Assembly (NCBI RefSeq): GCF_020544405.1
Contig: NZ_CP065410.1
Location: forward strand, 1,116,001 to 1,180,000
DNA: 64,000 nucleotides
Direction of reading: 5' to 3'
Origin: Pseudomonas sp. IAC-BECa141
GTDB taxonomy: Bacteria; Pseudomonadota; Gammaproteobacteria; Pseudomonadales; Pseudomonadaceae
Part shown: in pieces, positions 20,675 to 57,793 of the stretch
Layout: each line of letters opens with the position of its first letter
Numbering within the stretch: position 1 is the first letter of the stretch
The notes under the pieces: model-generated
The model's input: the letters and a program-made list of their open reading frames with translations, nothing else
What the model was told of the DNA's origin: nothing
Databases searched by the model: none
Translations under genes and position numbers: made by a program

Positions 20675-20687
20675 GAGATCGGGGGGA

Positions 20688-42475: not shown

Positions 42476-43497
42476 TCAGTGCGTGCGGGTGACTTTGCTC
42501 AGGTGTCGCGGCTGATCCGGGTCCATGCCACGGGCCACGGCCAGACCGGCCGCCATCACGTAGAAACTCTGGATCGCCAGGATCGGATCGAGCGCCGGGT
42601 GCTCGGCACGGCTCAAGGTCAGGTCGCGTTCGCTGACATCATCCGGCGCGGCCAGCAGCACGCGGGCACCGCGCTGGCGCATTTCGGCCGCCAGGCTCAG
42701 CAGGCCGGCCTGTTCGGCACCGCGGGGGCGAACACCAGCAGCGGGTAATGTTCGTCGATCAGGGCCATCGGGCCGTGACGGACTTCGGCGCTGCTGAAGG
42801 CTTCGGCCTGGATCGCCGAGGTTTCCTTGAATTTCAGTGCGGCTTCCTGAGCGATGGCGAAACCGGCGCCACGGCCGATCACCATCAACCGCTCGCAATC
42901 GCGCAGGGCGTCGATGGCCAGGCTCCAGTCCTGTTGCGCGGCTTCGCGCAGGCCTTCGGGCAGGGCGTTGTGTGCTTCCAGCAATTCGCTGTCTTCTTTC
43001 CAGTGCGCGATCAGACGGGCGCTGGCGCTGAGGGTAGCGATGAAGCTCTTGGTCGCGGCGACGCTGCTTTCGGTGCCGGCCAGTAACGGCAGGCTGAATT
43101 CACAGGCAGCTTCCAGCGGCGAATCGGCGGCGTTGACCATCGACACGCTCAGGGCACCGCGCTTGCGCAGCAGGCGCAGGCTGTTGACCAGGTCCGGGCT
43201 CTGGCCCGACTGGGAAAACGCGAACGCGACCTGACCGCTGACCTTCAGCGGCGCCTGCTGCATGGTCACCACCGACATCGGCAGCGACGCCACCGGAATC
43301 CCCAGTTGCTGCATGGTCAGGTAGGCGAAGTAGCTCGCTGCATGGTCGGAGCTGCCACGGGCAACGGTCATCGCCACTTGCGGCGGCTGACGACGCAGGC
43401 GCCCGGCGATCTCGATCATGTGCGGATCGAGTTGTTGCAGTTGGGCTTGCACGGCCTCGAACGAGGACAGCGCCTCCTCAAGCATTTTTGAAGTCAA
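42476..43497 (-). pseudogene. nagB: nagB, SIS-domain glucosamine-6-phosphate deaminase, frameshifted
   Basis: The reading frame from the ATG at 43497 gives two SIS domains (VARGSSDHAASYFAYL, FSQSGQSPDL, GTESSVAATKSF, VIGRGAGFAIAQEAALKFKE, EVRHGPMALID) and then breaks at about 42724-42728. The remainder, APRGAEQAGLLSLAAEMRQRGARVLL to RHLSKVTRTH, is in another frame and ends at 42476. Inserting one C into the five-C run (minus strand) restores a 340-residue protein. The family resembles the isomerase half of GlmS without the glutaminase domain and converts GlcN-6-P to Fru-6-P plus ammonia. It overlaps nagA by 20 bp. A sequence error is likelier than a true pseudogene. Confidence 0.85.
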
Positions 43498-55848: not shown

Positions 55849-56100
55849 ATGCTAACAATCCGTCTTGCCCTTGGCGGCTCCAAAAAGCGCCCGTTTTACC
55901 ACCTGACCGTAACCGACTCCCGCAACCCGCGTGACGGTTCCCACAAAGAACAGGTTGGTTTCTTCAACCCTGTTGCCCGTGGTCAGGAAGTTCGTCTGTC
56001 CGTGAACCAAGAGCGCGTTGCCTACTGGCTGAGCGTTGGTGCACAGCCTTCTGAGCGTGTTGCTCAGTTGCTGAAGGAATCTGCCAAGGCTGCAGCCTGA
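55849..56100 (+). CDS. rpsP: 30S ribosomal protein S16
   Basis: 83 residues, complete: [45 protein letters not shown] is the canonical S16 N-terminus, and [24 protein letters not shown] the conserved rest. It helps assemble the 30S central and 5' domains. CAGGAACG lies 8 bp before the start. It is the first gene of the classical rpsP-rimM-trmD-rplS operon, with rimM 5 bp downstream. Confidence 0.98.
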
Positions 56101-56105
56101 GCAGT

Positions 56106-56642
56106 ATGAGCGCGACGCCAGAAAAAGCTGATGACCTGATCGTTGTCGGCAAGATTTTTTCGGTTCACGGCGTTCGCGGCGAGGTGAAGGTCTTTTCCTT
56201 TACCGATCCGATTGAAAACCTGTTGAACTACCGCAACTGGACGCTTCGGCGCGAAGGCGTGGTAAAGCAGGTCGAGCTGGTCAGCGGTCGATCCACTCAA
56301 AAGGATCTGGTTGCCAAGCTCAAAGGCCTCGACGATCGTGATGAAGCCCGTCTTCTGAGCGGTTACGAGATTTGCATCTCACGAAGCCTTTTGCCCGACC
56401 TGACTGGCGACGAGTACTACTGGTACCAGTTGCAGGGTCTGAGTGTCATCAACCAGGACGAACAACTGTTCGGCAAGGTTGATCACCTGTTGGAGACCGG
56501 CGCGAACGATGTATTGGTGGTCAAGCCCTGCGTCGGCAGCCTGGATGATCGCGAGCGGTTGTTGCCCTATACGGAGCAATGCGTGCTGGCAATCGACCTG
56601 GAAGCAGGCGTGATGAGGGTGGAATGGGACGCGGACTTCTAA
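56106..56642 (+). CDS. rimM: 16S rRNA processing protein RimM
   Basis: 178 residues. N-terminal RimM barrel (DDLIVVGKIFSVHGVRGEVKVFSFTDPIENLLNYRNW) and a C-terminal PRC-barrel (YYWYQLQGLSVINQDEQLFGKVDHLLETGANDVLVVKP). It binds S19 and helps mature the 30S head. Both domains are complete. It lies between rpsP and trmD, each within 5 bp. Confidence 0.96.
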   Translation: MSATPEKADDLIVVGKIFSVHGVRGEVKVFSFTDPIENLLNYRNWTLRREGVVKQVELVSGRSTQKDLVAKLKGLDDRDEARLLSGYEICISRSLLPDLTGDEYYWYQLQGLSVINQDEQLFGKVDHLLETGANDVLVVKPCVGSLDDRERLLPYTEQCVLAIDLEAGVMRVEWDADF

Positions 56643-56645
56643 GCA

Positions 56646-57397
56646 ATGGCCAGCCTGCGCGTAGACGTCATTACGCTGTTCCCCGAGATGTTCTCGGCCA
56701 TCAGTGAGTACGGCATTACCAGTCGTGCGGTCAAACAGGGGCTGTTGCAGCTGACCTGTTGGAATCCGCGGGATTACACGACGGATCGGCATCACACTGT
56801 GGACGATCGCCCGTTTGGCGGTGGTCCGGGCATGGTGATGAAGATCAAGCCCCTGGAAGATGCTCTGGTTCAGGCCAAGGCAGCAGCCGGGGAGGCGGCG
56901 AAGGTGATTTACCTGTCCCCCAAGGCCGTCAACTGACTCAGTCGGCGGTACGCGAACTGGCGAAATCGGATGCATTGATCCTGATTGCCGGTCGCTATGA
57001 AGGCATTGACGAGCGTTTTATTGATGCTCATGTCGATGAAGAGTGGTCGATTGGTGACTATGTGTTGTCTGGCGGCGAGCTGCCGGCCATGGTCATGATC
57101 GATGCGGTTACACGACTGCTGCCCGGAGCTTTAGGGCATGCGGATTCCGCTGAGGAAGATTCCTTTACGGATGGTCTGCTGGATTGCCCGCACTACACCC
57201 GACCTGAGGTGTATGCGGATCAGCGTGTTCCCGACGTGTTGCTGAGTGGCAATCACGCGCATATCCGGCGTTGGCGTTTACAGCAGTCCCTCGGCAGGAC
57301 CTATGAACGACGCGCCGATCTTCTGGAAAGCCGCTCGCTTTCTGGAGAAGAGAAGAAGCTGCTCGAGGAATACATCCGCGAGCGGGACGATAGTTAA
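56646..57397 (+). pseudogene. trmD: trmD, tRNA (guanine-37-N1)-methyltransferase, with a one-base frameshift
   Basis: The first 92 residues ([29 protein letters not shown]... [23 protein letters not shown]... VIYLSP) are normal, then the frame breaks at the five-C run 56917-56921 and stops at 56936. The remaining sequence continues in another frame as [35 protein letters not shown]...[12 protein letters not shown] to 57397. One added C gives TCC CCC CAA and a 250-residue protein with the trefoil-knot motif GRYEGIDER. TrmD makes m1G37, prevents +1 frameshifting and is essential, so this is most likely a sequence error. Confidence 0.92.
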
Positions 57398-57442
57398 CAA
57401 CGTATCGATGGTAGATCAGACGATTTACCTTAGGAGCACAGC

Positions 57443-57793
57443 ATGACCAACAAAATCATCCTTGCACTCGAAGCAGAGCAGATGACCAAAGAAGTCCCTA
57501 CCTTTGCCCCAGGCGACACCATCGTCGTTCAGGTGAAAGTGAAGGAAGGCGATCGTTCCCGTCTGCAAGCGTTCGAAGGCGTTGTAATCGCCAAGCGTAA
57601 CCGCGGCGTGAACAGTGCGTTCACCGTTCGTAAAATCTCCAACGGTGTTGGCGTAGAACGTACTTTCCAGACCTACTCCCCGCAGATCGACAGCATGGCT
57701 GTCAAGCGTCGCGGTGACGTACGTAAAGCCAAGCTGTACTACCTGCGCGACCTGTCGGGTAAAGCAGCTCGCATCAAGGAAAAACTGGCTTAA
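57443..57793 (+). CDS. rplS: 50S ribosomal protein L19
   Basis: 116 residues: [60 protein letters not shown] is the L19 signature; C-terminus [25 protein letters not shown]. It sits at the 30S-50S interface. TTAGGAGCACAGC before the start is a strong ribosome binding site. It ends the rpsP operon and is followed by a clear terminator. Confidence 0.98.

Follow-up and report, generated by a model that had tools for sequence, protein, structure and literature searches.

A one-base frame change in trmD of Pseudomonas sp. IAC-BECa141 is probably a consensus sequencing error at a C run

The programmed frameshifts of prfB and dnaX are conserved across species. The trmD gene of Pseudomonas sp. IAC-BECa141, as published, resembles these in being a housekeeping gene whose reading frame changes partway. 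Systematic errors of nanopore sequencing are mainly homopolymer indels, and these shift reading frames (PMC8011154); errors in long reads can create false pseudogenes (PMC12007338). The trmD break resembles such errors in being one of several one-base losses that are concentrated at homopolymers and split genes that are intact in relatives. TrmD, the tRNA (guanosine(37)-N1)-methyltransferase (TIGR00088, PF01746), itself prevents +1 frameshift errors (PMC7641325).

We found that trmD is written as two frames in the IAC-BECa141 genome. In the window (the whole stretch of DNA that was analysed, 64,000 nucleotides; positions are those of the window unless stated), trmD occupies 56646-57397 on the forward strand, and the two frames meet at a run of C (56917-56921). 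Read directly, the bases give five C in this run and an early stop, TGA, at 56934-56936. The 5' part (56646-56936) extends from the ATG to this stop, 96 codons as read, and matches PF01746 over profile positions 2-66. The 3' part (56918-57397) is read in the adjacent frame, ends at the normal stop and matches profile positions 62-194. These were the two PF01746 matches on the genome, both above the cut-off and both at the trmD locus.

For comparison we used two relatives that are each assembled as one contig: G253, with about 95% identity, and G254, with about 89%. With the TrmD of G253 as the tblastn query, residues 1-93 aligned in frame 3 at 98.9% identity and residues 92-250 aligned in frame 2 at 100% identity. 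The tblastn pieces and a pairwise alignment both placed the frame change at the C run. A sequence-only reading of this DNA had described trmD as broken at this run and conserved downstream to 57397. Both descriptions were borne out, including the bases it quoted, the five C and the position of the stop. Both halves match the TrmD family (PF01746), and a single uninterrupted frame was found in the relatives listed and not in IAC-BECa141. The intact TrmD of G254 scored 331 bits (cut-off 195), and the frame in IAC-BECa141 is interrupted after about 93 codons.

The genes around trmD are all open frames on the forward strand. Those upstream encode 83 aa (55849-56100) and 178 aa (56106-56642), and the one downstream encodes 116 aa (57443-57793). 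We take them to be rpsP, rimM and rplS, from the usual order rpsP-rimM-trmD-rplS, so that the two halves of trmD sit between rimM- and rplS-like genes. The stretch from 55849 to 57793 aligned at 99% to the nearest two among 398 genomes of the genus.

We suggest that trmD is intact in the cell and that the published consensus is one base short at the C run (56917-56921), with a probability of about 0.93. The missing base would be a residual indel such as long-read assembly leaves behind in homopolymers. If so, the reads would show an intact trmD. As a feature of the living cell, the break is very probably not real.

The out-of-frame state of trmD as written is more than a chance variation in spacing. 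A pattern drawn over the C run, with a spacing of 4 to 9 bases allowed, found 93 stretches in named genomes, and all 93 had the same in-frame spacing, from which IAC-BECa141 differs; the pattern finds only records with identical flanking codons, and the frame of these 93 loci was judged at the site alone. The nearest of 80 of these 93 records over the region from rpsP to rplS was Pseudomonas paraglycinae BML-PP023 (98.9%). No other homopolymer in the trmD of G253 or of G254 reaches 5 bases, and the break is thus at the gene's longest run. Across 199 genomes of the genus, PF01746 gave one match in 194, none in 2 and two matches in 3 (IAC-BECa141, G034 and G080). Among the matches listed for single-match genomes, PF01746 spanned profile positions 2-194 or 2-195. 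The trmD of G080 (one contig, 86% complete) was found in overlapping matches with 52-75% identity, one of them with four TGA stops, and is error-laden or degenerate.

We set 404 kb of IAC-BECa141, made up of the window and the 340 kb that follow it, against the corresponding parts of G253 and G254. Open reading frames were counted if their differences fell mostly at third codon positions and if they were intact in the other relative, and the same script was applied to the three genomes. Frameshifted conserved genes numbered 6 of 274 in IAC-BECa141 (265 intact, 3 absent), 1 of 289 in G253 and 1 of 304 in G254. The filter also scored 11 genes as absent and 1 as partial in G253, and 17 as absent, 5 as partial and 4 as carrying stops in G254. 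The excess in IAC-BECa141 had a Fisher p of 0.062 against G253 alone and 0.014 against G253 and G254 pooled.

Each of the six frameshifted genes is one base shorter in IAC-BECa141 than in both relatives, and G253 and G254 have no frame-changing gap between them at the six places. Three of the breaks are at runs of 5-6 bases in G253; of the rest, two are directly next to a run and the third is within a short GC-rich repeat. The six genes show no sign of decay, because their protein identity to G253 is 98-100% on both sides of the break. Searched with NCBIfam, the intact relative copies of trmD, lpxD, rseP and an MprF-type synthase scored above the curated cut-offs; those of a CheR-like and a NagB-II-like gene scored below theirs. 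The latter is a second frameshifted conserved gene in the window (42479-43497, reverse strand, break near 42724), similar to NagB-II and to the isomerase half of GlmS. It is one base shorter than in the two relatives, where it is intact, and the intact relative copy matched NagB-II best, below the curated cut-off.

In rseP and lpxD, too, the coding sequence falls into two frames (at about 1269223-1270571 and 1273601-1274565 of the chromosome), within about 102 kb of trmD. There was no second copy of lpxD or rseP in the genome; other matches fell short of the cut-off, with no more than 43 and 24 bits, respectively. A real break in trmD is unlikely because three genes, trmD, lpxD and rseP, are broken within one stretch, where each lacks a single base that the relatives have and keeps both halves conserved. 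The sequence-only reading had placed the break probably in the assembly rather than in the cell. This is supported by the similar splits in lpxD and rseP nearby and by the lack of a second trmD in the 6.22 Mb contig.

The splits in lpxD and rseP are a stronger argument than the essentiality of trmD. It had been claimed that TrmD is needed for viability. The claim agrees with the citation of trmD as indispensable in P. aeruginosa, but not with E. coli, in which trmD stop-codon and catalytic mutants are viable and grow very slowly (PMC8643618). For Enterobacteriaceae, trmD is tabulated as a core essential gene (PMC11481867), and LpxD, in LPS synthesis, is treated among complexes of essential proteins (PMC10863985). 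In the literature portions searched, we found no essential-gene table of Pseudomonas that names lpxD together with trmD or rseP. The argument from rseP is not absolute, as rseP is essential in E. coli BW25113 and dispensable in the ST131 strains studied (PMC11481867). We infer that this species requires both lpxD and rseP to grow; lpxD is generally taken to be essential in Pseudomonas.

Two features expected of homopolymer error were present: the frame of trmD changes at a homopolymer, and other conserved genes in the 404 kb are split by one-base losses. We also compared the lengths of homopolymer runs in the 404 kb, scoring a run where the other two genomes agree in its length. Among runs of at least 5 bases, 6 of 149 were shortened in IAC-BECa141 (and 1 was lengthened), compared to 0 of 140 in G253 and 0 of 143 in G254 (3 lengthened). 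The trmD C run is one of the six. In IAC-BECa141, shortened GC runs numbered 0 of 1786 at 3 bases, 0 of 187 at 4, 2 of 26 at 5 and 2 of 5 at 6. For AT runs the counts were 0 of 1118 at 3 bases, 1 of 242 at 4, 0 of 76 at 5, 1 of 33 at 6, 1 of 8 at 7 (1 also lengthened) and 0 of 1 at 8. Counting any change in length, 0 of 3475 runs differed in G253 and 11 of 3486 in G254, the more distant relative, none of these being a shortening of a run of at least 5 bases. The frequency of loss thus grows with run length and exceeds that of the relatives, although the numbers are small and the effect was not seen in a second region. This dependence on length would point to homopolymer error.

Some observations do not fit a simple error model. 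The breaks in IAC-BECa141 are few and uneven by region, unlike typical long-read homopolymer errors (PMC8011154, PMC12007338). Three of the six lie beside a run of the relative rather than inside it, which speaks against error, and the sequencing platform is one that we presume to be long-read. In the second region (200 kb, 5.73-5.93 Mb), 0 of 159 genes were frameshifted in IAC-BECa141, 0 of 159 in G253 and 1 of 155 in G254. Of the runs of at least 5 bases there, 1 of 60 was shortened and 1 of 60 lengthened in IAC-BECa141, versus 0 and 2 of 60 in G253. Run lengths in this region are about as regular in IAC-BECa141 as in G253, with nothing unusual. Break density is therefore uneven (6 of 274 genes in 1.116-1.520 Mb versus 0 of 159 in 5.73-5.93 Mb), and this argues against a uniform error rate. 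The errors would be few, because the completeness of the genome (one contig, 6,221,060 bases) is given as 99.99%, and clustered near the window, perhaps following local read depth.

A two-way comparison with G253, summed over three regions, found 11 of 618 genes frameshifted in IAC-BECa141 and 6 of 626 in G253, a modest difference. By region the counts were 8 of 311 versus 2 of 312, 0 of 158 versus 2 of 159, and 3 of 149 versus 2 of 155. Isolated one-base gaps in which IAC-BECa141 was the shorter outnumbered those in which it was the longer by 33 to 20, 10 to 7 and 25 to 14 in the three regions. This is weaker evidence, since a comparison with no third genome does not distinguish which of the two has changed.

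An early crude count of frameshifts gave 4 of 121 for IAC-BECa141, 0 of 113 for G253 and 8 of 175 for G254. Two runs of a second crude count gave 6 of 222 and 5 of 215, 1 of 231 and 1 of 218, and 7 of 253 and 6 of 246, respectively. G254 had as many frameshifts as IAC-BECa141 or more in these counts, which admitted many open reading frames with internal stops in the target, taken for antisense frames, and which overlooked the trmD of IAC-BECa141 both in the first count and in one run of the second. They were replaced by the filter on third codon positions. One further split from the second crude count is absent from the filtered list; it is near position 129975 of the joined stretch, shows about 82% identity and has no match in NCBIfam.

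If the frameshift were real in the sequenced culture, TrmD would be inactive, m1G37 would be missing, and the cells would survive, either growing poorly or compensated by some other change. Runs of C are natural slip sites in replication. E. coli survives the loss of trmD, and growth recovers mainly by duplication or mutation of proS (PMC8643618). The lack of an error excess in the second region also favours a real change. We nevertheless consider a real frameshift very unlikely. Against it are the splits, within the same 404 kb, of lpxD and rseP, genes with no second copy found, and the 98-100% identity on both sides of all six breaks. A real break would bear on how well a cell tolerates the loss of m1G37.

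Also in favour of a real change, the same break recurs in a second genome, G034 (about 91% identical over the operon). Its trmD is split at the same residues and with the same spacing as that of IAC-BECa141. However, G034 (one contig) looks full of frame errors, because 18 of 113 conserved genes were frameshifted in 200 kb of its sequence (C1:2077001-2277000), compared to 0 of 118 in G253 and 1 of 135 in G254 for the same reference frames. Of the other genes among the 113, 79 were intact and 10 absent in G034, 5 carried stops and 1 was partial. In IAC-BECa141, 104 of the same reference genes were intact and 3 frameshifted, 4 carried stops, 1 was absent and 1 partial; trmD is included among the 18 of G034 and not among these 3. 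A break that recurs at the same C run is what errors would give, and the annotation of G034 should be handled with care.

It is extremely unlikely that the run is real and that slippage of the ribosome or RNA polymerase is frequent enough to make full-length TrmD. Slippage on a C run is possible in principle, and a stable RNA fold is found downstream of the run (z of -2.34). Three relatives in which trmD is in frame have a fold of the same strength there (z of -2.67, -2.20 and -2.34), so it is not tied to the frameshift. There is also no conserved shifted state: the 93 named loci are unshifted, and the shifted state was found only in G034. This differs from prfB and dnaX in that the trmD relatives tested are unshifted. 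The direction is also unsuited to a feedback loop of TrmD on its own synthesis. The required move is -1, from frame 3 to frame 2, and TrmD prevents +1 errors (PMC7641325). We rejected a self-regulating loop of this kind for that reason.

A bolder reading is that the break is real and recurs in two Pseudomonas lineages (IAC-BECa141 and G034), with the C run as a slip-prone switch of tRNA m1G37. Cells could then switch m1G37 on or off, and with it the fidelity of translation at proline codons. We regard it as scarcely credible.

A true pseudogene covered by a backup enzyme is not suggested by the genome, in which a PF01746 profile search of the whole 6.22 Mb contig found no second trmD and no PF02475 match looks like a Trm5-type backup. 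A second intact trmD would have counted against the sequence-only reading, which stands on this point. The Trm5 family (PF02475) gave three weak matches on the genome, the best at 2.6e-6 and 29.3 bits, just above the cut-off of 28. These three proteins best matched RlmI-kind 23S rRNA methyltransferases, HemK/PrmC-type methyltransferases (both of these below the curated cut-offs) and the cyclopropane fatty acid synthase CfaB, and were rejected as candidates.

A consensus error at the C run would have consequences for use of the genome. Automatic annotation could call trmD, lpxD and rseP pseudogenes and so give a false picture of dispensable genes in Pseudomonas. Our results suggest that clustered frame errors can persist in a one-contig genome with a completeness of 99.99%. 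A run in the window can also differ in the other direction: the six G at 20685 exceed the run in relative G375 by one base, and one extra base in IAC-BECa141 is seen against G253 as well.
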